From Saccoglossus kowalevskii (taxonomy: Eukaryota; Hemichordata; Enteropneusta; Harrimaniidae), in contig NW_003109254.1 in assembly GCF_000003605.2 (NCBI RefSeq), positions 1 through 33,600 of the forward strand: a DNA stretch of 33,600 nucleotides. The letters are read 5' to 3'. The position numbers were made by a program, and so were the translations under genes. The notes beneath the pieces are model-generated. The model had not been told where the DNA came from. It searched no databases and saw only the letters and a program-made list of their open reading frames with translations. The first letter of the stretch is position 1. Each line of letters opens with the position of its first letter. Below are positions 1-33,600 of this stretch, in pieces.

Positions 1-130
1 GTATTGAGCGAATTTGAATAAATTCAGTTTTTCGAATAACTTCAGGTATATTTGAAATATCAATTGTTTTGCATCGTATTTCATTTCACGAATTTGTAAT
101 CGCTTTTATTAAAATTGAAATATTTTTGGA

Positions 131-147
131 AGACATTTCAAACGTCT
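131..147. repeat. Imperfect spacer dyad
   Basis: The 17 bases agac-a-ttt-c-aaa-c-gtct form a near-palindrome with one mismatched pair around a central base. It recurs in each spacer. Two main forms exist, differing in the central base (c or a). Function unknown. Confidence 0.5.
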
Positions 148-186
148 ATATTAGCATTATGAATATATTTAATTGGTTATAATTGT

Positions 187-217
187 AAAAATTATATTTC
201 AAACATCAATGTTTGAA
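187..217 (-). terminator. Trailer hairpin plus T-run of copy 1 (model for all units)
   Basis: Read on the minus strand, 17 bases after the tRNA comes the perfect inverted repeat TTCAAACA / TGTTTGAA with a 4-base loop (198-217), then 6 A/T bases, then T5 (187-191). There is no T4 between the tRNA and this T-run, so Pol III, which normally stops at four or more Ts, should make a trailer of about 44-48 bases carrying the hairpin. The same arrangement sits about 18-48 bases left of nearly every tRNA start. Loop sequence and T-run length vary between copies and are given in the tRNA entries. T5 applies where no run is stated. Confidence 0.75.
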
Positions 218-245
218 TTGTGAATCATAATTACTGCCTCGTGTG

Positions 246-256
246 AGGATCGAACT
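246..256 (-). promoter_or_regulatory. Pol III B box inside copy 1
   Basis: tRNA positions 52-62 read AGTTCGATCCT, matching the GTTCRANNCC B-box core bound by TFIIIC. It is intact in most copies. C56, a key B-box base, is changed in copies 68, 76 and 84, and U55 in copy 44. Confidence 0.9.
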
Positions 257-288
257 CACGACCTTCAGATTATGAGACTGACGCGCTG

Positions 289-300
289 CCTACTGCGCTA
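289..300 (-). promoter_or_regulatory. Pol III A box inside copy 1
   Basis: tRNA positions 8-19 read TAGCGCAGTAGG, a full match to the TRGYNNARNNGG A box. Recurrent changes at position 9 (A>T in copies 20, 24, 27, 31, 85, 95) and at positions 10-12 in a few copies could weaken it. Confidence 0.9.
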
Positions 301-321
301 ACGAGGCGGCGATGACAATAA

Positions 322-336
322 CAATTCTTTGTATTG
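322..336 (-). promoter_or_regulatory. Conserved upstream block, candidate Pol III upstream element
   Basis: At -15 to -29 from the tRNA 5' end the transcript strand reads CAATACAAAGAATTG. The CAATACAAAGAATT core is kept in both main spacer types although the bases on its tRNA side differ (GTTATTG versus ATGTATTG). Its position and A/T content fit a TATA-like element that supports start-site choice at some animal tRNA genes. This is inferred from conservation and position only. Confidence 0.4.
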
Positions 337-339
337 AGC

Positions 340-356
340 GAATTTGAAATAAATTC
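340..356. repeat. GAATTT/AAATTC dyad in spacer
   Basis: A 6-bp perfect inverted repeat with a 5-base loop, present in type A spacers. In type B spacers the right arm becomes ATATTC with one mismatch. No function is apparent. Confidence 0.4.
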
Positions 357-565
357 AGTTTTTCGAATAACTTCAGGTATATTTGAAATATCAATTGTTT
401 TGCATCGTATTTCATTTCACGAATTTGTAATCGCTTATATTAAAATTGAAATATTTTTGGAAGACATTTAAAACGTCTGTATTAGCATTATGAATATATT
501 TAATTGGTTATAATTGTAAAAATTATATTTCAAACAGCACTGTTTGAATTGTGAATCATAATTAC

Positions 566-638
566 TGCCTCATGTGAGGATCGAACTCACGACCTTCAGA
601 TTATGAGACTGACGCGCTGCCTACTGCGCTAACGAGGC
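566..638 (-). tRNA. tRNA-Met-CAT: tRNA-Met(CAT) copy 2
   Basis: C67>U gives a tolerated G6-U67 wobble. The trailer hairpin loop GTGC can extend the stem to 9 bp. Confidence 0.92.
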
Positions 639-896
639 GGCGATGACAATAACAATTCTTTGTATTGAGCGAATTTGAAATAAATTCAGTTTTTCGAATA
701 ACTTCAGGTATATTTGAAATATCAATTGTTTTGCATCGTGTTTCATTTCACGAATTTGTAATCGCTTTTATTAAAATTGAAATATTTTTGGAAGACATTT
801 CAAACGTCTATATTAGCATTATGAATATATTTAATTGGTTATAATTGTAAAAATTATATTTCAAACATCACTGTTTGAATTGTGAATCATAATTAC

Positions 897-969
897 TGCC
901 TCGTGTGAGGATCGAACTCACGACCTTCAGATTATGAGACTAACGCGCTGCCTACTGCGCTAACAAGGC
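897..969 (-). tRNA. tRNA-Met-CAT: tRNA-Met(CAT) copy 3
   Basis: C28>U and C5>U, both leaving G-U wobbles (28-42 and 5-68). Trailer loop GTGA. This pair of changes recurs in copies 36, 91, 96 and 99. Confidence 0.92.
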
Positions 970-1227
970 GGCGATGACAATAACAATTCTTTGTATTGAG
1001 CGAATTTGAAATAAATTCAGTTTTTCGAATAACTTCAGGTATATTTGAAATATCAATTGTTTTGCATCGTATTTCATTTCACGAATTAGTAATCGCTTTT
1101 ATTAAAATTGAAATATTTTTGGAAGACATTTAAAACGTCTATATTAGCATTATGAATATATTTAATTGGTTATAATTGTAAAAATTATATTTCAAACATT
1201 AGTATTTGAATTGTGAATCATAATTAC

Positions 1228-4541: not shown

Positions 4542-4614
4542 TGCCTCGTGTGAGGATCGAATTCACGACCTTCAGATTATGAGACTGACGCGCTGCCTAC
4601 TGCGATAACGAAGC
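4542..4614 (-). tRNA. tRNA-Met-CAT: tRNA-Met(CAT) copy 14, degenerate
   Basis: G53>A, G10>U and C3>U disturb the T stem and D stem; the last leaves a U3-G70 wobble. Trailer loop GTGC. Confidence 0.75.
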
Positions 4615-5940: not shown

Positions 5941-5948
5941 GGCGACGG

Positions 5949-6531: not shown

Positions 6532-6604
6532 TGCCTCGTGTGATGATCGAACTCACGACCTTCAGATTATAAGACTGACGCGCTGCCTACTGCGCAAACG
6601 AGGC
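6532..6604 (-). tRNA. tRNA-Met-like copy 20, anticodon TAT, degenerate
   Basis: C34>U changes the anticodon from CAT to TAT, the isoleucine AUA-reading anticodon. C61>A breaks the closing T-stem pair and A9>U alters the A box, so function is doubtful. Trailer loop GTGA, T7. Confidence 0.72.
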
Positions 6605-12160: not shown

Positions 12161-12233
12161 TGCCTCGTGTGAGGATCGAACTCACGACCTTCAGATTATG
12201 AGACTGACGCGCTGCCTACTGCGCTAACGAGTC
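12161..12233 (-). tRNA. tRNA-Met-CAT: tRNA-Met(CAT) copy 37
   Basis: C2>A opposes G71 in the acceptor stem. Trailer loop GTGA. First member of the block repeated at copies 54-59. Confidence 0.82.
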
Positions 12234-12490
12234 AGCGACGACAATAATAATTCTTTGTATTGAGAGAATTGAAAATAAATTCAGTTTTTCGAATAACTTC
12301 ACGTATATTTGAAATATAAATTGTATTGCATCGTCTATCATTTCACGAAATTGTAATCGCTTTTATTAAAATTGAAATATTTTTGGAAGACATTTCAAAC
12401 GTCTATATGAGCATTATGAAATATTTAATTGGTTATAATTTACAAAATTATATTTCAAACACCACTGTTTGAATTGTGAATCATAATTAC

Positions 12491-12563
12491 TGCCTCGTGT
12501 GAGGTTCGAACTCACGACCTTCAGATTATGAGACTGACGCGCTGCCTACTGCGCTAACGAGGC
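12491..12563 (-). tRNA. tRNA-Met-CAT: tRNA-Met(CAT) copy 38
   Basis: U59>A in the T loop, outside the key B-box bases. Trailer loop GTGG, T4. Confidence 0.91.
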
Positions 12564-12821
12564 GGCGATGACAATAACAATTCTTTGTATTGAGCGAATT
12601 TGAAATAAAGTCAGTTTTTCGAATAACTTCAGGTATATTTGAAATATCAATTGTTTTGCATCGTGTTTCATTTCACGAATTTGTAATCGCTTTTATTAAA
12701 ATTGAAATACTTTTGGAAGACATTTCAAACGTCTATATTAGCATAATCAATATATTTAATTGGTTATAATTGTAAAAATTATATTTCAAACATCACTGTT
12801 TGAATTGTGAATCATAATTAC

Positions 12822-12894
12822 TGCCTCGTGTGAGGATCGAACTCACGACCTTCAGATTATGAGACTGACACGCTGCCTACTGCGCTAACTAGGC
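12822..12894 (-). tRNA. tRNA-Met-CAT: tRNA-Met(CAT) copy 39
   Basis: C25>U wobble and C5>A, an acceptor mismatch. Trailer loop GTGA. Confidence 0.82.
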
Positions 12895-13152
12895 GGCGAC
12901 GACAATAATAATTCTTTGTATTGGGAGAATTGAAAATAAATTCAGTTTTTCGAATAACTTCAGGTATATTTGAAATATCAATTGTTTTGCATCGTGTTTC
13001 ATTTCACGAATTTGTAATCGCTTATATTAACATTGAAATATTTTTGGAAGACATTTAAAACGTCTATATTAGCATTATGAATATATTTAATTGGTTATAA
13101 TTGTAAAAATTATATTTCAAACAGCACTGTTTGAATTGTGAATCATAATTAC

Positions 13153-13225
13153 TGCCTCGTGTGAGGATCGAACTCACGACCTTCAGATTATGAGACTGAC
13201 GCGCTGCCTACTGCGCTAACGAGGC
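13153..13225 (-). tRNA. tRNA-Met-CAT: tRNA-Met(CAT) copy 40
   Basis: Exact consensus. Trailer loop GTGC. Confidence 0.96.
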
Positions 13226-13484
13226 GGCGACGACAATACGTAATTCTTTGTATTGGGCGAATTTAAAATATATTCAGTTTTTGGAATAACTTCACGTATA
13301 TTTGAAATATCAATTTAATTGCATCGTCTATCATTTCACGAATTTGTAATCGCTTTTATTAAAATTCAAATATTTTTGGAAGACATTTCAAACGTCTATA
13401 TTAGCATAATCAATATATTTAATTGGTTATAATTGTAAAAATTATATTTCAAACATCAGTGTTTGAATTGTGAATCATAATTAC

Positions 13485-13557
13485 TGCCTCATGTGAGAAT
13501 CGAACTCACGACCTTTAGATTATGAGACTGACGCGCTGCCTACTGCGCTAACGAGGC
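13485..13557 (-). tRNA. tRNA-Met-CAT: tRNA-Met(CAT) copy 41
   Basis: C67>U (wobble), C60>U in the T loop, and G42>A, which opposes C28 in the anticodon stem. This three-base haplotype recurs in copies 53, 58, 69 and 77. Trailer loop CTGA. Confidence 0.8.
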
Positions 13558-13815
13558 GGCGATGACAAGAACAACTCTTTGTATTGAGCGAATTTGAAAT
13601 AAATTCAGTTTTTTGAATAACTTCAGGTATATTTGAAATATCAATTGTTTTGCATCGTGTTTCATTTCACGAATTTGTAATCGCTTATATTAAAATTGAA
13701 ATATTTTTGGAAGACATTTAAAACGTCTATATTAGCATTATGAATATATTTAATTGGTTATATTTGTAAAAATTATATTTCAAACATCACTGTTTGAATT
13801 GTGAATCATAATTAC

Positions 13816-13888
13816 TGCCTCGTGTGAGGATCGAACTCACGACCTTCAGATTATGAGACTGACGCGCTGCCTACTGCGCTAACGATTC
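13816..13888 (-). tRNA. tRNA-Met-CAT: tRNA-Met(CAT) copy 42, acceptor stem damaged
   Basis: C2>A and C3>A leave two adjacent acceptor mismatches. Trailer loop GTGA. Confidence 0.72.
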
Positions 13889-14145
13889 GGCGACGACAAT
13901 AATAATTCTTTGTATTGAGAGAATTGAAAATAAATTCAGTTTTTCGAATAACTTCACGTATATTTGAAATATAAATTGTATTGCATCGTCTATCATTTCA
14001 CGAAATTGTAATCGCTTTTATTAAAATTGAAATATTTTTGGAAGACATTTCAAACGTCTATATTAGCATTATGAAATATTTAATTGGTTATAATTTACAA
14101 AATTATATTTCAAACACCACTGTTTGAATTATGAATCATAATTAC

Positions 14146-14218
14146 TGCCTCGTGTGAGGTTCGAACTCACGACCTTCAGATTATGAGACTGACGCGCTGC
14201 CTACTGTGCTAACGAGAC
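14146..14218 (-). tRNA. tRNA-Met-CAT: tRNA-Met(CAT) copy 43
   Basis: U59>A, G12>A (A-C in the D stem) and C2>U wobble. Trailer loop GTGG, T4. Confidence 0.8.
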
Positions 14219-14476
14219 GGCGATGACAATAAAAATTGTTTGTATTGAGCGAATTTGAAATAAATTCAGTTTTTCGAACAACTTCATGTATATTTGAAAT
14301 ATCAATTGTATTGCATCGTCTATCATTTCACGAATTTGTAATCGCTTTTATTAAAATTGAAATATTTTTGGAAGACATTTCAAACGTCTATATAAGCATT
14401 ATGAATATATTTAATTGGTTATAATTGTAAAAATTATATTTCAAACACCACTGTTTGAATTGTGAATCATAATTAC

Positions 14477-14549
14477 TGCCTCGTGTGAGGATCGTACTCA
14501 CGACCTTCAGATTATGAGACTGACGCGCTGCCTACTGCGCTACCGAGGC
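14477..14549 (-). tRNA. tRNA-Met-CAT: tRNA-Met(CAT) copy 44, T-loop damaged
   Basis: U55>A removes the universal pseudouridine-55 site and hits the B box; U7>G opposes A66. Probably weakly transcribed or misfolded. Trailer loop GTGG. Confidence 0.7.
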
Positions 14550-14807
14550 GGCGATGACAATAACAATTCTTTGTATTGAGCGAATTTGAAAAAAATTCAG
14601 TTTTTCGAATAACTTCAGGTATATTTGAAATATCAATTGTTTTGCATCGTGTTTCATTTCACGAATTTGTAATCGCTTTTATTAAAATTGAAATATTTTT
14701 GGAAGACATTTCAAACGTCTATATTAGCATTATGAATATATTTAATTGGTTATAATTGTAAAAATTATATTTCAAACATCAGTGTTTGAATTGTGAATCA
14801 TAATTAC

Positions 14808-14880
14808 TGCCTCGTGTGAGGATCGAACTCACGACCTTCAGATTATGAGACTGACGCGCTGCCTACTGTGCTAACGAGAC
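14808..14880 (-). tRNA. tRNA-Met-CAT: tRNA-Met(CAT) copy 45
   Basis: G12>A (D-stem mismatch) and C2>U wobble. Trailer loop CTGA. Confidence 0.82.
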
Positions 14881-15138
14881 GGCGATGACAATAACAATTG
14901 TTTGTATTGAGCGAATTTGAAATAAATTCAGTTTTTCGAATAACTTCATGTATATTTGAAATATCAATTGTATTGCATCGTCTATCATTTCACGAATTTG
15001 TATTCCCTTTTATTAAAATTCAAATATTTTTGGAAGACATTTCAAACGTCTATATTAGCATAATCAATATATTTAATTGGTTATAATTGTAAAAATTATA
15101 TTTCAAACATTAGTGTTTGAATTGTAAATCATAATTCC

Positions 15139-15211
15139 TGCCTCGTGTGAGGATCGAACTCACGACCTTCAGATTATGAGACTGACGCGCTGCCTACTGC
15201 GCTAACGAGGC
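15139..15211 (-). tRNA. tRNA-Met-CAT: tRNA-Met(CAT) copy 46
   Basis: Exact consensus. Trailer loop CTAA. Confidence 0.96.
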
Positions 15212-15469
15212 GGCGATGACAATAACAATTCTTTGTATTGAGCGAATTTGAAATAAATTCAGTTTTTCGAATAGCTTCAGGTACATTTGAAATATCAATT
15301 GTTTTGCATCGTGTTTCATTTCATGAATTTGTAATCGCTTACATTAAAATTGAAATATTTTTGGAAGACATTTAAAACGTCTATATTAGCATTATGAATA
15401 TATTTAATTGGTTATAATTTTAAAAATTATATTTCAAACAGCATTGTTTGAATTGTGAATCATAATTAC

Positions 15470-15542
15470 TGCCTCGTGTGAGGATCGAACTCACGACCTT
15501 CAGATTATGAGACTGACGCACTGCCTACTGCGCTAACGAGGC
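15470..15542 (-). tRNA. tRNA-Met-CAT: tRNA-Met(CAT) copy 47
   Basis: C23>U wobble with G12. Trailer loop ATGC. Its 5' end abuts an 18-bp insertion built from repeats of its own first bases. Confidence 0.9.
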
Positions 15543-15558
15543 TAACGCCGCTAACTAG
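15532..15558 (-). repeat. 9-bp triplication at the tRNA 5' end of copy 47
   Basis: Plus-strand gctaacgag, gctaacgcc and gctaactag lie in tandem. The first overlaps the tRNA 5' end and the other two displace the normal 5' flank by 18 bp, giving the only 350-bp unit. Slippage or a small templated insertion would explain it. Confidence 0.85.
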
Positions 15559-15819
15559 GCGGCGACGACAATACATAATTCTTTGTATTAGGCGAATTTA
15601 AAATATATTCAGTTTTGGAATAACTTCACGTATATTTGAAATATCAATTGTATTGCATCGTCTATCATTTCACGAATTTGTAATCGCTTTTATTAAAATT
15701 GAAATATTTTTGGAAGACATTTTCAAACGTCTATATTAGCATAATCAATATATTTAATTGGTTATAATTGTAAAATTTATATTTCAAACATCACTGTTTG
15801 AATTGTGAATCATAATTAC

Positions 15820-15892
15820 TGCCTCGTGTGAGGATCGAACTCACGACCTTCAGATTATGAGACTGACGCGCTGCCTACTGCGCTAACGAGGC
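15820..15892 (-). tRNA. tRNA-Met-CAT: tRNA-Met(CAT) copy 48
   Basis: Exact consensus. Trailer loop GTGA, T4 (AAATTTTAC context). Confidence 0.96.
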
Positions 15893-16150
15893 GGCGACGA
15901 CAATAATAATTCTTTGTATTGGGAGAATTGAAAATAAATTCAGTTTTTCGAATAACTTCAGGTATATTTGAAATATCAATTGTTTTGCATCGTGTTTCAT
16001 TTCACGAATTTGTAATCGCTTATATTAACATTGAAATATTTTTGGAAGACATTTAAAACGTCTATATTAGCATTATGAATATATTTAATTGGTTATAATT
16101 GTAAAAATTATATTTCAAACAGCACTGTTTGAATTGTGAATCATAATTAC

Positions 16151-16223
16151 TGCCTCGTGTGAGGATCGAACTCTCGACCTTCAGATTATGAGACTGACGC
16201 GCTGCCTACTGCGCTAACGAGGC
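16151..16223 (-). tRNA. tRNA-Met-CAT: tRNA-Met(CAT) copy 49
   Basis: U50>A opposes A64 in the T stem. Trailer loop GTGC. Confidence 0.83.
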
Positions 16224-16482
16224 GGCGACGACAATACATAATTCTTTGTATTGGGCAAATTTAAAATATATTCAGTTTTTGGAATAACTTCACGTATATT
16301 TGAAATATCAATTGTATTGCATCGTCTATCATTTCACGAATTTGTAATCGCTTTTATTAAAATTCAAATATTTTTGGAAGACATTTCAAACGTCTATATT
16401 AGCATAATCAATATATTTAATTGGTTATAATTGTAAAAATTATATTTCAAACATCAGTGTTTGAATTGTGAATCATAATTAC

Positions 16483-16555
16483 TGCCTCGTGTGAGGATCG
16501 AACTCACGACCTTCAGATTATGAGACTGACGCGCTGCCTACTGCGCTAACGAGAC
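16483..16555 (-). tRNA. tRNA-Met-CAT: tRNA-Met(CAT) copy 50
   Basis: C2>U wobble with G71. Trailer loop CTGA. Confidence 0.92.
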
Positions 16556-16813
16556 GGCGATGACAATAACAATTCTTTGTATTGAGCGAATTTGAAATAA
16601 ATTCAGTTTTTCGAATAACTTCATGTATATTTGAAATATCAATTGTATTGCATCGTCTATCATTTCACGAATTTGTAATCGCTTTTATTAAAATTGAAAT
16701 ATTTTTGGAAGACATTTCAAACGTCTATATAAGCATTATGAATATATTTAATTGGTTATAATTGTAAAAATTATATTTCAAACACCACTGTTTGAATTGT
16801 GAATCATAATTAC

Positions 16814-16886
16814 TGCCTAGTGTGAGGATCGAACTCACGACCTTCAGATTATGAGACTGACGCGCTGCCTACTGCGCTAACGAAGC
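16814..16886 (-). tRNA. tRNA-Met-CAT: tRNA-Met(CAT) copy 51
   Basis: G68>U opposes C5; C3>U leaves a wobble. Trailer loop GTGG. Confidence 0.8.
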
Positions 16887-17144
16887 GGCGATGACAATTA
16901 CAATTCTTTGTATTGAGCGAATTTGAAATAAATTCAGTTTTTCGAATAACTTCAGGTATATTTGAAATATCAATTGTTTTGCATCGTGTTTCATTTCACG
17001 AATTTGTAATCGCTTATATTAAAATTGAAATATTTTTGGAAGACATTTAAAACGTCTATATTAGCATTATGAATATATTTAATTGGTTATAATTGTAAAA
17101 ATTATATTTCAAACAGCACTGTTTGAATTGTGAATCATAATTAC

Positions 17145-17217
17145 TGCCTCGTGTGAGGATCGAACTCACGACCTTCAGATTATGAGACTGACGCGCTGCC
17201 TACTGCGCTAACGAGGC
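17145..17217 (-). tRNA. tRNA-Met-CAT: tRNA-Met(CAT) copy 52
   Basis: Exact consensus. Trailer loop GTGC. Confidence 0.96.
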
Positions 17218-17476
17218 GGCGACGACAATACATAATTCTTTGTATTGGGCGAATTTAAAATATATTCAGTTTTTGGAATAACTTCACGTATATTTGAAAT
17301 ATCAATTGAATTGCATCGTCTATCATTTCACGAATTTGTAATCGCTTTTATTAAAATTCAAATATTTTTGGAAGACATTTCAAACGTCTATATTAGCATA
17401 ATCAATATATTTAATTGGTTATAATTGTAAAAATTATATTTCAAACATCAGTGTTTGAATTGTGAATCATAATTAC

Positions 17477-17549
17477 TGCCTCATGTGAGAATCGAACTCA
17501 CGACCTTTAGATTATGAGACTGACGCGCTGCCTACTGCGCTAACGAGGC
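17477..17549 (-). tRNA. tRNA-Met-CAT: tRNA-Met(CAT) copy 53
   Basis: C67>U, C60>U, G42>A, the copy 41 haplotype. Trailer loop CTGA. Confidence 0.8.
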
Positions 17550-17807
17550 GGCGATGACAAGAACAACTCTTTGTATTGAGCGAATTTGAAATAAATTCAG
17601 TTTTTTGAATAACTTCAGGTATATTTGAAATATCAATTGTTTTGCATCGTGTTTCATTTCACGAATTTGTAATCGCTTATATTAAAATTGAAATATTTTT
17701 GGAAGACATTTAAAACGTCTATATTAGCATTATGAATATATTTAATTGGTTATATTTGTAAAAATTATATTTCAAACATCACTGTTTGAATTGTGAATCA
17801 TAATTAC

Positions 17808-17880
17808 TGCCTCGTGTGAGGATCGAACTCACGACCTTCAGATTATGAGACTGATGCGCTGCCTACTGCGCTAACGAGTC
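17808..17880 (-). tRNA. tRNA-Met-CAT: tRNA-Met(CAT) copy 54
   Basis: C2>A mismatch and G26>A between the D and anticodon stems. Trailer loop GTGA. Confidence 0.82.
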
Positions 17881-18137
17881 GGCGACGACAATAATAATTC
17901 TTTGTATTGAGAGAATTGAAAATAAATTCAGTTTTTCGAATAACTTCACGTATATTTGAAATATAAATTGTATTGCATCGTCTATCATTTCACGAAATTG
18001 TAATCGCTTTTATTAAAATTGAAATATTTTTGGAAGACATTTCAAACGTCTATATGAGCATTATGAAATATTTAATTGGTTATAATTTACAAAATTATAT
18101 TTCAAACACCACTGTTTGAATTGTGAATCATAATTAC

Positions 18138-18210
18138 TGCCTCGTGTGAGGTTCGAACTCACGACCTTCAGATTATGAGACTGACGCGCTGCCTACTGCG
18201 CTAACGAGGC
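18138..18210 (-). tRNA. tRNA-Met-CAT: tRNA-Met(CAT) copy 55
   Basis: U59>A only. Trailer loop GTGG, T4. Confidence 0.92.
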
Positions 18211-18468
18211 GGCGATGACAATAACAATTCTTTGTATTGAGCGAATTTGAAATAAAGTCAGTTTTTCGAATAACTTCAGGTATATTTGAAATATCAATTG
18301 TTTTGCATCGTGTTTCATTTCACGAATTTGTAATCGCTTTTATTAAAATTGAAATACTTTTGGAAGACATTTCAAACGTCTATATTAGCATAATCAATAT
18401 ATTTAATTGGTTATAATTGTAAAAATTATATTTCAAACATCACTGTTTGAATTGTGAATCATAATTAC

Positions 18469-18541
18469 TGCCTCGTGTGAGGATCGAACTCACGACCTTC
18501 AGATTATGAGACTGACACGCTGCCTACTGCGCTAACGAGGC
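18469..18541 (-). tRNA. tRNA-Met-CAT: tRNA-Met(CAT) copy 56
   Basis: C25>U wobble with G10. Trailer loop GTGA. Confidence 0.92.
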
Positions 18542-18799
18542 GGCGACGACAATAATAATTCTTTGTATTGGGAGAATTGAAAATAAATTCAGTTTTTCGA
18601 ATAACTTCAGGTATATTTGAAATATCAATTGTTTTGCATCGTGTTTCATTTCACGAATTTGTAATCGCTTATATTAACATTGAAATATTTTTGGAAGACA
18701 TTTAAAACGTCTATATTAGCATTATGAATATATTTAATTGGTTATAATTGTAAAAATTATATTTCAAACAGCACTGTTTGAATTGTGAATCATAATTAC

Positions 18800-18872
18800 T
18801 GCCTCGTGTGAGGATCGAACTCACGACCTTCAGATTATGAGACTGACGCGCTGCCTACTGCGCTAACGAGGC
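18800..18872 (-). tRNA. tRNA-Met-CAT: tRNA-Met(CAT) copy 57
   Basis: Exact consensus. Trailer loop GTGC. Confidence 0.96.
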
Positions 18873-19131
18873 GGCGACGACAATACGTAATTCTTTGTAT
18901 TGGGCGAATTTAAAATATATTCAGTTTTTGGAATAACTTCACGTATATTTGAAATATCAATTTAATTGCATCGTCTATCATTTCACGAATTTGTAATCGC
19001 TTTTATTAAAATTCAAATATTTTTGGAAGACATTTCAAACGTCTATATTAGCATAATCAATATATTTAATTGGTTATAATTGTAAAAATTATATTTCAAA
19101 CATCAGTGTTTGAATTGTGAATCATAATTAC

Positions 19132-19204
19132 TGCCTCATGTGAGAATCGAACTCACGACCTTTAGATTATGAGACTGACGCGCTGCCTACTGCGCTAACG
19201 AGGC
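19132..19204 (-). tRNA. tRNA-Met-CAT: tRNA-Met(CAT) copy 58
   Basis: C67>U, C60>U, G42>A. Trailer loop CTGA. Confidence 0.8.
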
Positions 19205-19462
19205 GGCGATGACAAGAACAACTCTTTGTATTGAGCGAATTTTAAATAAATTCAGTTTTTTGAATAACTTCAGGTATATTTGAAATATCAATTGTTTTGC
19301 ATCGTGTTTCATTTCACGAATTTGTAATCGCTTATATTAAAATTGAAATATTTTTGGAAGACATTTAAAACGTCTATATTAGCATTATGAATATATTTAA
19401 TTGGTTATATTTGTAAAAATTATATTTCAAACATCACTGTTTGAATTGTGAATCATAATTAC

Positions 19463-19535
19463 TGCCTCGTGTGAGGATCGAACTCACGACCTTCAGATTA
19501 TGAGACTGACGCGCTGCCTACTGCGCTAACGAGTC
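19463..19535 (-). tRNA. tRNA-Met-CAT: tRNA-Met(CAT) copy 59
   Basis: C2>A acceptor mismatch. Trailer loop GTGA. Confidence 0.83.
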
Positions 19536-19792
19536 GGCGACGACAATAATAATTCTTTGTATTGAGAGAATTGAAAATAAATTCAGTTTTTCGAATAACT
19601 TCACGTATATTTGAAATATAAATTGTATTGCATCGTCTATCATTTCACGAAATTGTAATCGCTTTTATTAAAATTGAAATATTTTTGGAAGACATTTCAA
19701 ACGTCTATATGAGCATTATGAAATATTTAATTGGTTATAATTTACAAAATTATATTTCAAACACCACTGTTTGAATTGTGAATCATAATTAC

Positions 19793-19865
19793 TGCCTCGT
19801 GTGAGGTTCGAACTCACGACCTTCAGATTATGAGACTGACGCGCTGCCTACTGCGCTAACGAGGC
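19793..19865 (-). tRNA. tRNA-Met-CAT: tRNA-Met(CAT) copy 60
   Basis: U59>A only. Trailer loop GTGG, T4. Confidence 0.92.
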
Positions 19866-20123
19866 GGCGATGACAATAACAATTCTTTGTATTGAGCGAA
19901 TTTGAAATAAAGTCAGTTTTTCGAATAACTTCAGGTATATTTGAAATATCAATTGTTTTGCATCGTGTTTCATTTCACGAATTTGTAATCGCTTTTATTA
20001 AAATTGAAATACTTTTGGAAGACATTTCAAACGTCTATATTAGCATAATCAATATATTTAATTGGTTATAATTGTAAAAATTATATTTCAAACATCACTG
20101 TTTGAATTGTGAATCATAATTAC

Positions 20124-20196
20124 TGCCTCGTGTGAGGATCGAACTCACGACCTTCAGATTATGAGACTGACACGCTGCCTACTGCGCTAATGAGGC
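20124..20196 (-). tRNA. tRNA-Met-CAT: tRNA-Met(CAT) copy 61
   Basis: C25>U wobble and G6>A, which opposes C67. Trailer loop GTGA. Confidence 0.83.
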
Positions 20197-20454
20197 GGCG
20201 ACGACAATAATAATTCTTTGTATTGGGAGAATTTAAAATAAATTCAGTTTTTCGAATAACTTCAGGTATATTTGAAATATCAATTGTTTTGCATCGTGTT
20301 TCATTTCACGAATTTGTAATCGCTTATATTAACATTGAAATATTTTTGGAAGACATTTAAAACGTCTATATTAGCATTATGAATATATTTAATTGGTTAT
20401 AATTGTAAAAATTATATTTCAAACAGCACTGTTTGAATTGTGAATCATAATTAC

Positions 20455-20527
20455 TGCCTCGTGTGAGGATCGAACTCACGACCTTCAGATTATGAGACTG
20501 ACGCGCTGCCTACTGCGCTAACGAGGC
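20455..20527 (-). tRNA. tRNA-Met-CAT: tRNA-Met(CAT) copy 62
   Basis: Exact consensus. Trailer loop GTGC. Confidence 0.96.
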
Positions 20528-20786
20528 GGCGACGACAATACGTAATTCTTTGTATTGGGCGAATTTAAAATATATTCAGTTTTTGGAATAACTTCACGTA
20601 TATTTGAAATATCAATTTAATTGCATCGTCTATCATTTCACGAATTTGTAATCGCTTTTATTAAAATTCAAATATTTTTGGAAGACATTTCAAATGTCTA
20701 TATTAGCATAATCAATATATTTAATTGGTTATAATTGTAAAAATTATATTTCAAACATCAGTGTTTGAATTGTGAATCATAATTAC

Positions 20787-20859
20787 TGCCTCGTGTGAGG
20801 ATCGAACTCACGACATTCAGATTATGAGACTGACGCGCTGCCTACTGTGCTAACGAGAC
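20787..20859 (-). tRNA. tRNA-Met-CAT: tRNA-Met(CAT) copy 63
   Basis: G45>U, G12>A (D-stem mismatch) and C2>U wobble; related to copies 43 and 45. Trailer loop CTGA. Confidence 0.8.
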
Positions 20860-21117
20860 GGCGATGACAATAAAAATTGTTTGTATTGAGCGAATTTGAA
20901 ATAAATTCAGTTTTTCGAATAACTTCAGGTATATTTGAAATATCAATTGTATTGCATCGTCTATCATTTCACGAATTTGTAATCGCTTTTATTAAAATTG
21001 AAATATTTTTGGAAGACATTTAAAACGTCTATATTAGCATTATGAATATATTTAATTGTTTATAATTGTAAAAAATTTATTTCAAACAGCACTGTTTGAA
21101 TTGTGAATCATAATTAC

Positions 21118-21190
21118 TGCCTTGTGTGAGGATCGAACTCACGACCTTCAGATTATGAGACTGACGCACTGCCTACTGCGCTAACGAGGC
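21118..21190 (-). tRNA. tRNA-Met-CAT: tRNA-Met(CAT) copy 64
   Basis: G68>A opposes C5; C23>U is a wobble. Trailer loop GTGC, T6. Confidence 0.82.
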
Positions 21191-21449
21191 GGCGACGACA
21201 ATACATAATTCTTTGTATTGGGCGAATTTAAAATATATTCAGTTTTTGGAATAACTTCACGTACATATGAAATATCAATTGTATTGCATCGTCTATCATT
21301 TCACGAATTTGTAATCGCTTTTATTAAAATTGAAATATTTTTGGAAGACATTTCAAACGTCTATATTAGCATAATCAATATATTTAATTGGTTATAATTG
21401 TAAAATTTATATTTCAAACATAACTGTTTGAATTATGAATCATAATTAC

Positions 21450-21522
21450 TGCCTCGTGTGAGGATCGAACTCACGACCTTCAGATTATGAGACTGACGCA
21501 CTGCCTACTGCGCTAACGAGGC
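21450..21522 (-). tRNA. tRNA-Met-CAT: tRNA-Met(CAT) copy 65
   Basis: C23>U wobble. Trailer loop GTTA, shared only with copy 74; T4. Confidence 0.91.
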
Positions 21523-21781
21523 GGCGACGACAATACATAATTCTTTGTATTGGGCGAATTGAAAATAAATTCAGTTTTTGGAATAACTTCACGTATATTT
21601 GAAATATCAATTGTATTGCATCGTCTATCATTTCACGAATTTGTAATCGCTTTTATTAAAATTGAAATATTTTTGGAAAACATTTCAAACGTCTATATTA
21701 GCATAATCAATATATTTAATTGGTTATAATTGTAAAATTTATATTTCAAACATCGCTGTTTGAATTGTGAATCATAATTAC

Positions 21782-21854
21782 TGCCTCGTGTGAGGATCGA
21801 ACTCACGACCTTCAGATTATGAGACTGACGCGCTGCCTACTGCGCGAACGAGGC
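21782..21854 (-). tRNA. tRNA-Met-CAT: tRNA-Met(CAT) copy 66
   Basis: A9>C in the A box. Trailer loop GCGA, a GNRA variant shared only with copy 75; T4. Confidence 0.87.
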
Positions 21855-22060
21855 GGCGACGACAATACGTAATTCTTTGTATTGGGCGAATTTAAAATAT
21901 ATTCAGTTTTTGGAATAACTTCACGTATATTTGAAATATCAATTGTATTGCATCGTCTATCATTTCACGAATTTGTAATCGCTTTTATTAAAATTGAAAT
22001 ATTTTTGGAAGACATTTCAAACGTCTATATTAGCATTATGAAATATTTAATTGGTTATAA

Positions 22061-22095
22061 TTTACACAATTATATTTCAAACACCACTGTTTGGA
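22061..22095 (-). terminator. Defective trailer terminator of copy 67
   Basis: The plus strand reads tttacacaat where sister copies have tttacaaaat, so the T4 run is interrupted. The hairpin also has a mismatch from tttgga. The next T4 on the transcript strand is about 120 bases beyond the tRNA 3' end. This is the only unit I found without a T-run of at least four at this site. Confidence 0.75.
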
Positions 22096-22112
22096 TTGTG
22101 AATCATAATTAC

Positions 22113-22185
22113 TGCCTCGTGTGAGGATCGAACTCACGACCTTCAGATTATGAGACTGACGCGCTGCCTACTGCGCTAACGAGGC
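22113..22185 (-). tRNA. tRNA-Met-CAT: tRNA-Met(CAT) copy 67
   Basis: Exact consensus tRNA with a disrupted terminator. Trailer loop GTGG. Read-through toward copy 66 is predicted. Confidence 0.95.
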
Positions 22186-22443
22186 GGCGATGACAATAAC
22201 AATTCTTTGTATTGAGCGAATTTGAAATAAAGTCAGTTTTTCGAATAACTTCAGGTATATTTGAATTATCAATTGTTTTGCATCGTGTTTCATTTCACGA
22301 ATTTGTAATCGCTTTTATTAAAATTGAAATATTTTTGGAAGACATTTCAAACGTCTATATTAGCATAATCAATATATTTAATTGGTTATAATTGTAAAAA
22401 TTATATTTCAAACATCAGTGTTTGAATTGTGAATCATAATTAC

Positions 22444-22516
22444 TGCCTCGTGTGAGGATCAAACTCACGACCTTGGGATTATGAGACTGACGCGCTGCCT
22501 ACTGCGCTAACGAGGC
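22444..22516 (-). tRNA. tRNA-Met-CAT: tRNA-Met(CAT) copy 68, degenerate
   Basis: C56>U removes the G19-C56 contact and a core B-box base. G42>C and U41>C break two anticodon-stem pairs. Probably a pseudogene. Trailer loop CTGA. Copy 76 is identical. Confidence 0.65.
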
Positions 22517-22775
22517 GGCGACGACAATACATAATTCTTTGTATTGGGCGAATTGAAAATAAATTCAGTTTTTCGAATAACTTCACGTATATTTGAAATA
22601 TTAATTGTATTGCATCGTCTATCATTTCACGAATTTGTAATCGATTTTATTAAAATTGAAATATTTTTGGAAGACATTTCAAACGTCTATGTTAGCATAA
22701 TCAATATATTTAATTGGTTATAATTGTAAAATTTATATTTCAAACATCACTGTTTGAATTGTGAATCATAATTAC

Positions 22776-22848
22776 TGCCTCATGTGAGAATCGAACTCAC
22801 GACCTTTAGATTATGAGACTGACGCGCTGCCTACTGCGCTAACGAGGC
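22776..22848 (-). tRNA. tRNA-Met-CAT: tRNA-Met(CAT) copy 69
   Basis: C67>U, C60>U, G42>A as in copy 41, but the trailer loop is GTGA with T4, so this unit is a recombinant of that haplotype with another trailer. Confidence 0.8.
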
Positions 22849-23106
22849 GGCGATGACAAGAACAATTCTTTGTATTGAGCGAATTTGAAATAAATTCAGT
22901 TTTTTGAATAACTTCAGGTATATTTGAAATATCAATTGTTTTGCATCGTTTTTCATTTCACGAATTTGTAATCGCTTATATTAAAATTGAAATATTTTTG
23001 GAAGACATTTAAAACGTCTATATTAGCATTATGAATATATTTAATTGGTTATATTTGTAAAAATTATATTTCAAACATCACTGTTTGAATTGTGAATCAT
23101 AATTAC

Positions 23107-23179
23107 TGCCTCGTGTGAGGATCGAACTCACGACCTTCAGATTATGAGACTGACGCGCTGCCTACTGCGCTAACGAGTC
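23107..23179 (-). tRNA. tRNA-Met-CAT: tRNA-Met(CAT) copy 70
   Basis: C2>A acceptor mismatch. Trailer loop GTGA. Confidence 0.83.
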
Positions 23180-23436
23180 GGCGACGACAATAATAATTCT
23201 TTGTATTAAGAGAATTGAAAATAAATTCAGTTTTTCGAATAACTTCACGTATATTTGAAATATAAATTGTATTGCATCGTCTATCATTTCACGAAATTGT
23301 AATCGCTTTTATTAAAATTGAAATATTTTTGGAAGACATTTCAAACGTCTATATGAGCATTATGAAATATTTAATTGGTTATAATTTACAAAATTATATT
23401 TCAAACACCACTGTTTGAATTGTGAATCATAATTAC

Positions 23437-23509
23437 TGCCTCGTGTGAGGTTCGAACTCACGACCTTCAGATTATGAGACTGACGCGCTGCCTACTGCGC
23501 TAACGAGGC
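23437..23509 (-). tRNA. tRNA-Met-CAT: tRNA-Met(CAT) copy 71
   Basis: U59>A only. Trailer loop GTGG, T4. Confidence 0.92.
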
Positions 23510-23767
23510 GGCGATGACAATAACAATTCTTTGTATTGAGCGAATTTGAAATAAAGTCAGTTTTTCGAATAACTTCAGGTATATTTGAAATATCAATTGT
23601 TTTGCATCGTGTTTCATTTCACGAATTTGTAATCGCTTTTATTAAAATTGAAATACTTTTGGAAGACATTTCAAACGTCTATATTAGCATAATCAATATA
23701 TTTAATTGGTTATAATTGTAAAAATTATATTTCAAACATCACTGTTTGAATTGTGAATCATAATTAC

Positions 23768-23840
23768 TGCCTCGTGTGAGGATCGAACTCACGACCTTCA
23801 GATTATGAGACTGACACGCTGCCTACTGCGCTAACGAGGC
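23768..23840 (-). tRNA. tRNA-Met-CAT: tRNA-Met(CAT) copy 72
   Basis: C25>U wobble. Trailer loop GTGA. Confidence 0.92.
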
Positions 23841-24098
23841 GGCGACGACAATGATAATTCTTTGTATTGGGAGAATTGAAAATAAATTCAGTTTTTCGAA
23901 TAACTTCAGGTATATTTGAAATATCACTTGTTTTGCATCGTGTTTCATTTCACGAATTTGTAATCGCTTATATTAACATTGAAATATTTTTGGAAGACAT
24001 TTAAAACGTCTATATTAGCATTATGAATATATTTAATTGGTTATAATTGTAAAAATTATATTTCAAACAGCACTGTTTGAATTGTGAATCATAATTAC

Positions 24099-24171
24099 TG
24101 CCTCGTGTGAGGATCGAACTCACGACCTTCAGATTATGAGACTGACGCACTGCCTACTGCGCTAACGAGGC
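24099..24171 (-). tRNA. tRNA-Met-CAT: tRNA-Met(CAT) copy 73
   Basis: C23>U wobble. Trailer loop GTGC. Counterpart of copy 64 without G68>A. Confidence 0.91.
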
Positions 24172-25094: not shown

Positions 25095-25167
25095 TGCCTC
25101 GTGTGAGGATCAAACTCACGACCTTGGGATTATGAGACTGACGCGCTGCCTACTGCGCTAACGAGGC
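25095..25167 (-). tRNA. tRNA-Met-CAT: tRNA-Met(CAT) copy 76, degenerate
   Basis: Same C56>U, G42>C and U41>C as copy 68. Trailer loop CTGA. Confidence 0.65.
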
Positions 25168-26417: not shown

Positions 26418-26490
26418 TACCTCGTGTGAGGATCGAACTCACGACCTTCAGATTAAGAGACTGACGCGCTGCCTACTGCGCTAACGAGGC
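26418..26490 (-). tRNA. tRNA-Met-like copy 80, anticodon CTT
   Basis: A35>U changes the anticodon from CAT to CTT, a lysine (AAG) anticodon. The only other change is C72>U. The unit is otherwise nearly identical to copy 79 beside it, so the change is recent. Trailer loop GTGA. Confidence 0.82.
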
Positions 26491-29728: not shown

Positions 29729-29801
29729 TGCCTCGTGTGAGGATCGAACTCACGACCTTCAGATTACGAGACTGACGCGCTGCCTACTGCGCTAACGAGG
29801 C
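29729..29801 (-). tRNA. tRNA-Met-like copy 90, anticodon CGT
   Basis: A35>G is the only change from the consensus and turns the CAT anticodon into CGT, which reads the threonine codon ACG. Cloverleaf, A box and B box are intact, so transcription is expected. Whether it is charged with Met, Thr or nothing cannot be seen. Trailer loop CTAA, T5. Confidence 0.88.
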
Positions 29802-30720: not shown

Positions 30721-30793
30721 TGCCTCGTGTGAGGATCGAACTCACGACCTTCAGATTATAAGACTAACGCGATGCCTACTGCGCTAACAAGGC
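30721..30793 (-). tRNA. tRNA-Met-like copy 93, anticodon TAT
   Basis: C34>U gives anticodon TAT (isoleucine AUA) on the C28>U/G22>U/C5>U background, so the D stem has a mismatch. Trailer loop GTGA. Confidence 0.78.
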
Positions 30794-31051: not shown

Positions 31052-31124
31052 TGCCTGGTGTGAGGATCGAACTCACGACCTTCAGATTATGAGACTAACG
31101 CGATGCCTACTGCGCTAACAAGGC
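31052..31124 (-). tRNA. tRNA-Met-CAT: tRNA-Met(CAT) copy 94
   Basis: C28>U, G22>U, C5>U plus G68>C, so pair 5-68 is U-C and lost. Trailer loop GTGA. Confidence 0.76.
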
Positions 31125-31382
31125 GGCGATGACAATAACAATTCCTTGTATTGAGCGAATTTGAAATAAATTCAGTTTTTCGAATAACTTCACGTATATT
31201 TGAAATATCAATTGTATTGCATCGTCTATCATTTCACGAATTTGTAATCGCTTTTATTAAAATTGAAATATTTTTGGAAGACATTTCAAACGTCTATATT
31301 ATCATTATGAATATATTTAATTGGTTATAATTTACAAAATCATATTTCAAACATCACTGTTTAAATTGTGAATCATAATTAC

Positions 31383-31455
31383 TGCCTCGTGTGAGGATCG
31401 AACTCACGACCTTCAGATTATGAGACTGACGCGCTGCCTACTGCGCAAACAAGGC
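31383..31455 (-). tRNA. tRNA-Met-CAT: tRNA-Met(CAT) copy 95
   Basis: A9>U and C5>U. Trailer as in copies 27 and 31: loop GTGA, G-U in the stem, T4. Confidence 0.87.
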
Positions 31456-31715
31456 GGCGATGACAATAACAATTCTTTTGTAGTGAGCGAATTTAAAATA
31501 TATTCAGATTGTGGAATAACTTCACGTATATTTGAAATATCAATAGTATTGCATCGTCTATCATTTCACGAATTTGTAATCGCTTTTATTAAAATTGAAA
31601 TATTTTTGGAAGACATTTCAAACGTCTATATAAGCATAATCAACATATTTAATTGGTTATAATTGCAAAAAATTATATTTCAAACATTAGTGTTTGAATT
31701 GTGAATCATAATTAC

Positions 31716-31788
31716 TGCCTCGTGTGAGGATCGAACTCACGACCTTCAGATTATGAGACTAACGCGCTGCCTACTGCGCTAACAAGGC
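31716..31788 (-). tRNA. tRNA-Met-CAT: tRNA-Met(CAT) copy 96
   Basis: C28>U and C5>U wobbles. Trailer loop CTAA, T6. Confidence 0.92.
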
Positions 31789-32045
31789 GGCGATGACAAT
31801 AACAATTCTTTGTATTGAGGGAATTTGAAATAAATTCAGTTTTTCGAATAACTTCACGTATATTTGAAATATCAATTGTATTGCATCGTCTATCATTTCA
31901 CGAATTTGTAATCGCTTTTATTAAAATTGAAATATTTTTGGAAGACATTTCAAACGTCTATATTAGCATAATCAATATATTTAATTGGTTATAATTGTAA
32001 AAATTATATTTCAAACATTAGTATCGAATTGTGAATCATAATTAC

Positions 32046-32117
32046 TGCCTCATGTGAGGATCGAACTCACGACCGTCAGATTATGAGACTGACGCGCTGC
32101 TACTGCGCTAACGAGGC
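32046..32117 (-). tRNA. tRNA-Met-CAT: tRNA-Met(CAT) copy 97, D-loop deletion
   Basis: Only 72 bases: one of G18/G19 is deleted, removing a D-loop/T-loop contact and damaging the A box. C67>U and A44>C are also present. The trailer hairpin is destroyed (tattagtatcgaat region). Probably a pseudogene. Confidence 0.65.
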
Positions 32118-32375
32118 GGCGATGACAATAACAATTCTTTGTATTGAGCGAATTTGAAATAAATTCAGTTTTTCGAATAACTTCACGTATATTTGAAATA
32201 TCAATTGTATTGCATCGTCTATCATTTCACGAATTTGTAATCGCTTTTATTAAAATTGAAATATTTTTGGAAGACATTTCAAACGTCTATATTAGCATAA
32301 TCAATATATTTAATTGGTTATAATTGTAAAAATTATATTTCAAACATTAGTGTTTGAATTGTGAATCATAATTAC

Positions 32376-32448
32376 TGCCTCGTGTGAGGATCGAACTCAC
32401 GACCTTCAGATTACGAGACTGACGCGCTGCCTACTGCGCTAACGAGGC
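32376..32448 (-). tRNA. tRNA-Met-like copy 98, anticodon CGT
   Basis: Identical to copy 90: consensus body with A35>G only. Two copies with an intact body show this variant has been propagated by array duplication. Trailer loop CTAA. Confidence 0.88.
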
Positions 32449-32707
32449 GGCGATGACAATAACAATTCTTTGTATTGAGCGAATTTGAAATAAATTCAGT
32501 TTTTCGAATAACTTCAGGTATATTTGAAATATCAATTGTTTTGCATCGTATTTCATTTCACGAATTAGTAATCGCTTTTATTAAAATTGAAATATTTTTG
32601 GAAGACATTTAAAACGTCTATATTAGCATTATGAATATATTTAATTGGTTATAATTGTAAAAAATTATATTTCAAACATCACTGTTTGAATTGCGAATCA
32701 TAATTAC

Positions 32708-32780
32708 TGCCTCGTGTGAGGATCGAACTCACGACCTTCAGATTATGAGACTAACGCGCTGCCTACTGCGCTAACAAGGC
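32708..32780 (-). tRNA. tRNA-Met-CAT: tRNA-Met(CAT) copy 99
   Basis: C28>U and C5>U wobbles. Trailer loop GTGA, T6. Confidence 0.92.
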
Positions 32781-33038
32781 GGCGATGACAATAACAATTC
32801 TTTGTATTGAGCGAATTTGAAATAAATTCAGTTTTTCGAATAACTTCACGTATATTTTAAATATCAATTGTATTGCATCGTGTTTCATTTCACGAATTTG
32901 TAATCGCTTATATTAAAATTGAAATATTTTTGGAAGACATTTAAAACGTCTATATTAGCATTATGAATATATTTAATTGGTTATAATTGTAAAAATTATA
33001 TTTCAAACAGCACTGTTTGAATTGTAAATCATAATAAC

Positions 33039-33111
33039 TGCCTCGTGTGAGGATCGAACTCACGACCTTCAGATTATGAGACTGACGCGCTGCCTACTGC
33101 GCTAACGAGGC
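33039..33111 (-). tRNA. tRNA-Met-CAT: tRNA-Met(CAT) copy 100
   Basis: Exact consensus. Trailer loop GTGC; flank shared with copy 15 (gtaaatcataataactg). Confidence 0.96.
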
Positions 33112-33370
33112 GGCGACGACAATACATAATTCTTTGTATTGGGCGAATTTAAAATATATTCAGTTTTTGGAATAACTTCACGTATATTTGAAATATCAAT
33201 TGTATTACATCGTCTATCATTTCACGAATTTGTAATCGCTTATATTAAAATTGAAATATTTTTGGAAGACATTTCAAACGTCTATATTAGCATAATCAAT
33301 ATATTTAATTGGTTATAATTGTAAAAATTATATTTCAAACATCAGTGTTTGAATTATGAATCATAATTAC

Positions 33371-33443
33371 TGCCTCGTGCGAGGATCGAACTCACTACCT
33401 TCAGATTATGAGACTGACGCGCTGCCTACTGCGCTAACGAGGC
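33371..33443 (-). tRNA. tRNA-Met-CAT: tRNA-Met(CAT) copy 101
   Basis: A64>G (G-U in the T stem) and C48>A, which removes the usual G15-C48 contact. Trailer loop CTGA. Confidence 0.83.
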
Positions 33444-33600
33444 GGCGACGACAATATATAATTCTTTGTATTGGGCGAATTTAAAATATATTCAGTTTTT
33501 GGAATAACTTCACGTATATTTGAAATATCAATTGTATTGCATCGTCTATCATTTCACGAATTTGTAATCGCTTTTATTAAAATTGAATATTTTTGGGAGA
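33444..33600. other. Partial type B spacer at right edge
   Basis: 5' flank of copy 101 with type B markers (gggcg, tttttgg, cacgtata, tattgcatcgtctatc). The last 20 bases depart from the consensus by a missing a and an extra g. No gene seen. Confidence 0.85.

Follow-up and report, generated by a model that had tools for sequence, protein, structure and literature searches.

The 5S rRNA arrays, which undergo concerted evolution, carry in each tandem unit one short Pol III gene with an internal promoter and a short spacer. Large tandem arrays of tRNA genes, such as the 3.18-kb tDNA repeat of Xenopus and the tRNA arrays of Entamoeba, contain several tRNA types per unit, and presumably so does the human tRNA VNTR at 1q23.3. 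The Entamoeba arrays are named in both PMC2888827 and PMC4041453, and the latter calls homogeneous tandem tRNA gene repeats uncommon outside Entamoeba. As defined in PMC2888827, homogeneous tDNA clusters consist of units of one isotype lying less than 1 kb apart; the same source describes tDNA pairs as mostly homogeneous in drosophilids and mostly heterogeneous in Nematostella and zebrafish, and reports for Nematostella and teleosts tDNA clusters with 50 or more members. Several tandem arrays are described individually. The Arabidopsis tRNA-Cys cluster comprises four to six units of ~420 bp that are 84–94% alike, its copy number differs among ecotypes, and it overlaps Helitron annotations (PMC10701932). 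Maize chromosome 2 bears 28 tandem tRNA-Ile genes and Arabidopsis chromosome 1 bears 25 or 27 tRNA-Pro genes (PMC11700998). The maize satellite tRNASAT_ZM forms a 91.95-kb array on chr4L of Mo17 (PMC10335936), and the human 1q23.3 locus is a polymorphic repeat of 9–43 GC-rich units of 7.3 kb (PMC4041453).

The stretch of Saccoglossus kowalevskii DNA analysed here (the window, 33,600 nt) is, from its first to its last position, one tandem array, for which Tandem Repeats Finder gives a period of 331, 101.4 copies and 94% matches. As the sequence-only reading had proposed, it consists of at least 101 head-to-tail units of elongator tRNA-Met and runs past the window at both ends (Table 1). All 101 tRNA positions lie on the minus strand, and the spacing between the 100 successive pairs is exactly 331 bp in 56 cases and 329–333 bp in 98, the remaining two being 327 and 350 bp. 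The alignment omits the copy nearest the window start (235–307), whose downstream neighbour falls outside the window, and alignment-based counts are accordingly given per 100 units. The mean pairwise identity among these units is 95.1%, which excludes chance. Only two closed ORFs of at least 70 codons are found in the window, each of 80 codons.

The layout is that of the 5S rRNA arrays, with a different gene and promoter type, while the Xenopus and Entamoeba arrays, likewise large and tandem, differ in having multiple tRNA types per unit. The array belongs with the homogeneous clusters as defined in PMC2888827, its five copies with a changed anticodon being point variants of the same gene. Like it, the Arabidopsis tRNA-Cys cluster has a single type of tRNA per short tandem unit, but it has far fewer units, which are less alike than the 95% seen here, and the Helitron overlap is on the Arabidopsis side (PMC10701932). 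The maize tRNA-Ile and Arabidopsis tRNA-Pro clusters are also tandem and of a single isotype, but they hold about a quarter of the copies, belong to plants and concern other isotypes (PMC11700998). With tRNASAT_ZM, a plant sequence, the comparison covers array size and name, the likeness being that of a tRNA-named tandem satellite extending over tens of kilobases (PMC10335936); with the human VNTR the likeness is the presence of tRNA genes in a tandem repeat, the 7.3-kb unit being unlike the present one (PMC4041453). The sequence-only reading had regarded a single-tRNA satellite as unusual beside arrays of several tRNA types. The rarity agrees with what PMC4041453 states for genomes other than that of Entamoeba, but the contrast was drawn too strongly, since tandem arrays of a single isotype have been published (Arabidopsis tRNA-Cys, maize tRNA-Ile). 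Because single-tRNA tandem arrays are known from other genomes, the present array is a large example and not a new kind. Among the matches listed from the open-licence literature, none names an elongator tRNA-Met satellite of an animal in its title, which is not a claim of absence from print. Exact matches were found neither in viral contigs (one spacer and two tRNA patterns) nor in prokaryotic contigs (one trailer and one tRNA pattern), both being uninformative on eukaryotes.

Table 1. Coordinates of the array and of features discussed in the text
Feature	Position	Strand	Basis or remark
Tandem array of 101 head-to-tail tRNA-Met units of ~331 bp, one orientation	1..33600	-	both ends outside the window
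tRNA-Met gene nearest the window start, consensus sequence	235..307	-	other 100 at ~331-bp steps, last at 33371-33443
Box A, first unit, TAGCGCAGTAGG	289..300	-	pattern match
Box B core, first unit, GTTCGATCC	247..255	-	pattern match
3' trailer hairpin, first unit, 8-bp stem, 4-nt variable loop	198..217	-	all 8 pairs in 94/100 aligned copies
T5 run, likely Pol III terminator, first unit	187..191	-	43 nt past the tRNA 3' end
Copy with anticodon TAT	6532..6604	-	ARAGORN
Copy with anticodon CTT	26418..26490	-	ARAGORN
Copy with anticodon CGT, lying in a stretch that has an exact repeat 8 units away	29729..29801	-	ARAGORN and exact-repeat analysis
Copy with anticodon TAT	30721..30793	-	ARAGORN
Copy with anticodon CGT	32376..32448	-	ARAGORN and exact-repeat analysis
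Clearest higher-order structure	12161..24171	-	unit-difference and exact-repeat analysis

The gene, an elongator tRNA-Met of eukaryotic type without an intron, is 73 nt long and has its full canonical form in nearly every copy. We take it to be of the elongator and not the initiator type from the G1–C72 pair, TTC in the T-loop and an anticodon stem without three G–C pairs. In cmscan all 101 copies exceed the Rfam tRNA cut-off, with 45.4–68.3 bits where the gathering score is 29, and every other Rfam family stays below its gathering score in the window. The claim that one tRNA species occupies the window without any other gene is thus borne out at this level, and the locus is neither an ordinary cluster of mixed tRNA genes, the finding that would have spoken against that claim, nor a multi-tRNA repeat, each unit holding one tRNA type. 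A permissive scan of positions 1–2000 gave weak matches to two other families, below their cut-offs. ARAGORN called 98 tRNAs (93 Met, 2 Ile-TAT, 2 Thr-CGT and 1 Lys-CTT) and missed the copies at 4542–4614, 22444–22516 and 25095–25167. The CAT anticodon is kept in 96 of the 101 copies, that is, in 95 of the 100 aligned ones and in the excluded copy; the other five (TAT, CTT or CGT) are anticodon point variants. Altogether, 53 distinct tRNA sequences occur among 100 copies.

The signals expected of a Pol III gene accompany most copies. Judged by consensus patterns, box A is retained in 87 of the 100 aligned copies, box B in 93 and both in 82, and a run of at least four T begins at +42 to +44 in 100 of the 101 units, reaching at least five T in 85. 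Five integrity checks are passed together by 46 of 100 copies. The idea that the trailer hairpin forms an RNA of exceptional stability was considered and rejected, its z of −0.98 not being significant. The 331-bp unit may be read, in order, as a leader, the tRNA gene with box A and box B inside it, a hairpin-bearing trailer of 43 nt, and a T-run terminator. This anatomy is seen directly in the letters; its use by Pol III we infer.

The units have evidently exchanged sequence. Higher-order structure is clearest at 12161–24171, where six-unit runs recur at lags of 5 and 17 units and four-unit runs at lags of 11, 16, 22 and 33, the longest exact match there being 705 bp. Linkage decays rapidly: mean r2 is 0.29 for sites within 30 bp of each other and about 0.07 for those more than 60 bp apart. 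Recombined haplotypes, multi-unit duplications and this fast decay together indicate exchange between units. The data do not support the tRNA gene itself as a recombination hotspot, since r2 at equal distance is similar whether or not a pair of sites spans it, and D' at 100–140 bp is even higher across the tRNA (0.87 versus 0.63 otherwise). Nor is there a five-unit higher-order repeat throughout the array: neighbouring units differ at 16.17 positions versus 16.21 in random order, and lag 5 is favoured only locally. Two further candidates were set aside, namely an excess of palindromes in the spacer (inverted repeats whose arms reach at least 7 number two, versus 0.48 expected; p 0.09, not significant) and a unit made of two related halves, for which the best self-shift, 37% identity at 170 bp, is unconvincing.

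Our preferred interpretation, to which we give about an even chance of being right, is a homogeneous tandem array of nuclear elongator tRNA-Met genes, probably of animal type to judge from animal tRNA-Met sequences, made of self-contained Pol III units that are kept alike by exchange and provide a redundant supply. The copies would have spread and been homogenized through unequal exchange and gene conversion, in the manner of 5S rDNA. Since the array as a whole would supply redundant tRNA-Met, any single copy would be nearly dispensable and under weak selection. New mutations would then accumulate in individual copies, and damaged genes, to judge from the frequency pattern, would rarely spread.

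The tests of selection give a mixed picture. The tRNA is poor in common variants, those present in more than five copies, with 53 variant cells where 195 are expected for sites matched by base class (p 0.0045), and rich in singletons (36 versus 25 expected, p 0.004); against this, among 331 placements that of the tRNA ranks 31st for scarcity of common variants and 12th for abundance of singletons. On the spacer tree, which ignores recombination, tRNA changes fall on terminal branches more often than spacer changes (p 0.024), and the comparison of broken with paired changes on the same tree is not significant (p 0.15). Alleles that keep a stem pair (10) occur in more copies than those that break one (29; Mann–Whitney p 0.0003), a difference confounded with mutation type; on the spacer tree, C-to-T changes outnumber G-to-A changes in the tRNA (42 versus 15) and also in the spacer (29 versus 13). 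When columns were permuted among tRNA sites sharing the same base, no avoidance of paired positions was seen (49 broken pairs versus 43 expected, p 0.82–0.84), and any avoidance of critical positions was slight at best (intact in 89 of 100 copies versus 81 expected, p 0.14–0.15). At least one pair is broken in 41 of the 100 copies. Against 60 simulated neutral sets, the 59 copies without a broken pair (mean 21, range 0–79), the total of 49 broken pairs (mean 175, range 28–284) and the 89 copies with critical sites kept (mean 64, range 0–99) are all better than the neutral mean, yet inside the range. ARAGORN, by contrast, recognizes 97 of the 100 real copies versus 45–95 (mean 71) in 30 sets simulated with spacer-like variation.

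These results bear most directly on the alternative of a neutral satellite, in which a tRNA gene was caught in an amplified segment; the array would then have little or no activity, and its copies would look intact owing to recent amplification. We consider this distinctly possible. Rare variants in the tRNA match or exceed those of the spacer in frequency, paired positions are not avoided and the observed pairing lies inside the simulated neutral range, while five copies have lost the Met anticodon; the unit length may also correspond to about two nucleosomes, and clustered tRNA genes of Arabidopsis are described as silenced in most tissues (PMC12308677). A neutral satellite is harder to reconcile with the depletion of common variants in the tRNA, with the recognition of more real copies by ARAGORN than in any of the 30 simulated sets and, less securely, with the T run of at least four in 100 of 101 units. 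Of the roles put forward in the sequence-only reading, among them a source of tRNA fragments, which stays a mere candidate, the data bear solely on the choice between a neutral satellite and a maintained gene array, and they lean to the latter without deciding the matter. An unlikely reading makes the array a natural record of mutation accumulation in a Pol III gene, since among some hundred redundant copies one can still see mutations that in ordinary tRNA genes are hidden by selection; the peak of tRNA singletons would then reflect transcription-associated mutagenesis of the gene body and hence transcription of the array in the germline. The singleton excess in the tRNA is, however, found at A/T sites (11/32 versus 27/195, p 0.009) and not at G/C sites (15/41 versus 23/63), and A/T singletons per site are similar in the presumed leader (0.17), the trailer (0.16) and elsewhere (0.13), all of which counts against mutagenesis.

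The remaining alternatives appear considerably less probable. That the array serves as a chromatin boundary or clustering element, with TFIIIC on its box B sites and an action through chromatin and not through tRNA, is improbable: the better retention of the box B than of the box A pattern (93 versus 87) would fit, as would the proposal, together with CTCF binding, that the human 1q23.3 tDNA repeat is a boundary (PMC4041453), but these are raw counts of two patterns unequal in length, and the flanks of the array lie outside the window, so that nothing to insulate is in view. We hold it very improbable that a mobile element carrying a tRNA promoter gave rise to the unit, be it a TRIM of the Helenus kind, a SINE or a tRNA-carrying Helitron. 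The Helitron annotations over the Arabidopsis tRNA-Cys cluster speak for such an origin (PMC10701932), but a paper cited for this idea finds the predicted structures generally unsupportive of tRNA function, and here the full canonical 73-nt elongator gene is present in nearly every copy. Least probable of all is a real array whose assembled length was inflated through misjoined reads. Tandem arrays are difficult to assemble, but wrong long-read overlaps should leave exact copies of several kilobases; here exact repeats extend to no more than 719 bp, which argues against inflation, and only 11 of the 4950 pairs of aligned units are free of substitutions. Collapse, the true array being longer than assembled, is possible.

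Large single-tRNA arrays make it possible to ask what redundant tRNA genes are for, and whether such genes are kept silent or serve as a reserve, and also at what rate a Pol III gene acquires mutations under weak selection on its individual copies; copy-specific variants render these questions of redundancy, silencing and mutation addressable by tRNA sequencing. In Arabidopsis most tissues keep the SYY cluster silent, but it is active in cells of the root cap (PMC12308677). If the present array, in the same manner, supplies elongator tRNA-Met in one tissue or at one stage, it would be a counterpart of that cluster.

The whole window is occupied by a single tandem array (positions 1–33600), for which Tandem Repeats Finder gave a period of 331, 101.4 copies and 94% matches. 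The 101 sites that match the tRNA consensus all lie on the minus strand, with a tRNA-to-tRNA spacing of 329–333 bp in 98 of the 100 successive intervals; both ends of the array lie outside the window, so that 101 units is a lower bound. Every copy exceeded the Rfam gathering score in a cmscan of the window, in which no other family reached its own cut-off, and ARAGORN predicted 98 tRNAs. Only two closed ORFs of at least 70 codons are present, each of 80 codons. The spacer consensus is AT-rich (24% G+C), and its CpG observed/expected ratio of 2.09, calculated from few sites, gives no sign of CpG loss.

The consensus tRNA is 73 nt long and intronless, with a fully paired acceptor stem, the anticodon CAT and a T-loop containing TTC. 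Its sequence marks it as an elongator tRNA of the eukaryotic kind, and we take the gene to be nearly identical to the human and insect elongator tRNA-Met gene. Exact consensus matches were found in 21 of the 101 copies (ungapped count), and the 100 aligned copies comprise 53 distinct tRNA sequences. Among these 100, all 20 tested pairs are intact in 59, the CAT anticodon is retained in 95, box A in 87 and box B in 93, and a run of four or more T residues (T4+) occurs at most 58 nt past the tRNA in 99; all five features coincide in 46. The first T4+ run begins 42–44 nt past the tRNA in 100 of the 101 units, and T5 or longer begins at 42 or 43 nt in 85. Between the tRNA and this putative terminator lies a hairpin: its 4-nt loop occurs in nine versions among 100 copies, its 8-bp stem is complete in 94, and its stability by itself is not unusual (z −0.98).

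Five copies carry a non-Met anticodon (TAT, CTT or CGT), both CGT copies scoring 66.8 bits in cmscan. If transcribed and charged with Met, such copies would decode codons for Ile, Lys or Thr as Met.

Table. Individual features of the array
Positions	Feature	Remark
198–217	Trailer hairpin	Equivalent site in other units
6532–6604	tRNA-Met body	Changed anticodon
11907–12160	Short spacer (4 bp below the usual length)	tRNA spacing 327
15543–15819	Long spacer (19 bp above the usual length)	tRNA spacing 350 vs 331
26418–26490	tRNA-Met body	Changed anticodon
29729–29801	tRNA-Met body	Changed anticodon
30721–30793	tRNA-Met body	Changed anticodon
32376–32448	tRNA-Met body	Changed anticodon

Mean divergence from the consensus is 2.1% in the tRNA versus 3.4% in the spacer, and this gap resides in common variants. 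When alleles found in one copy are counted as rare and those in more than five as common, the rare/common numbers are 36/6 in the tRNA and 51/31 in the spacer (Fisher p 0.007; 0.0008–0.027 over the six threshold pairs tried). Site permutation within base classes likewise gave a singleton excess (p 0.004) and a deficit of common variants (p 0.0045) in the tRNA. Stem alleles that keep a pair occur in more copies than those that break one (p 0.0003), and in the tRNA C-to-T alleles are spread over more copies than G-to-A ones (p 0.0008), a difference not seen in the spacer (p 0.46). This pattern fits tolerance of G-U pairs, but also strand-biased mutation. On a spacer tree, which takes no account of recombination, changes in the tRNA (p 0.024), and likewise those at stem positions that become unpaired (p 0.044), fall on terminal branches more often than spacer changes do; broken and paired stem changes did not differ significantly (p 0.15). 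Inside the tRNA, paired positions are not spared by variants (p 0.82–0.84), and critical positions are spared slightly at most (p 0.14–0.15). ARAGORN recognized 97 of the 100 real copies, more than in any of 30 sets simulated with spacer-like neutral variation (45–95); pairing and critical sites are better than the simulated mean, yet inside the range of 60 sets. From these tests, weak selection on the gene, acting at the level of the array, is moderately supported, the p-values assuming an independence of sites that linkage and shared descent weaken and coming from several tests without correction.

As regards mutation input, the singleton count in 73-bp sliding windows reaches its maximum of 38 at position −3 relative to the tRNA start, the tRNA itself ranking 12 of 331 with 36; for start points between +80 and +240, taken in 20-bp steps, the count is 12–16. 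The excess in the tRNA is found at A/T sites (11/32 versus 27/195, p 0.009), also when these have a G/C neighbour (11/28 versus 11/81, p 0.006). It is absent from G/C sites (15/41 versus 23/63) and small at A/T positions in what are presumed to be the leader and the trailer. Transcription-associated mutagenesis at tRNA loci was reported by Thornlow et al. 2018, as cited in PMC8113476, where it is described for flanks, gene bodies being under strong purifying selection. Germline transcription of the array is therefore no more than a possibility.

The aligned units share a mean pairwise identity of 95.1%, and 11 of 4950 unit pairs are without any substitution. Adjacent units resemble each other no more than they would if the order were random. 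When up to three differences per unit are allowed, six-unit runs repeat at lags 5 and 17, and four-unit runs at lags 11, 16, 22 and 33. Mean r2 between variants is 0.29 below 30 bp, 0.15 at 30–60 bp and 0.04–0.08 farther apart, decaying about equally across the tRNA and within the spacer. Together, the recurring runs and this decay would be the pattern expected of unequal exchange plus gene conversion. The longest exact match within the window is 719 bp, and the lack of long exact copies argues against an array inflated by misassembly; the assembly may have collapsed the array.

The array belongs to a known kind, that of homogeneous tandem tRNA repeats. Homogeneous tDNA clusters are treated as a class in PMC2888827, which lists clusters of fifty or more in Nematostella and teleosts and tDNA pairs mainly of mixed type in Nematostella and zebrafish. 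The authors of the human 1q23.3 study regarded homogeneous tandem repeats of tRNA genes as uncommon in organisms other than Entamoeba; the unit of that human repeat is 7.3 kb (PMC4041453), in contrast to 331 bp here. Short units with one tRNA each, as in the present array, are described for Arabidopsis (PMC10701932), and maize is reported to have 28 tRNA-Ile genes in tandem (PMC11700998) and a tRNA satellite of 92 kb (PMC10335936). What is notable in the S. kowalevskii array is its scale, the shortness of its unit and the type of tRNA.
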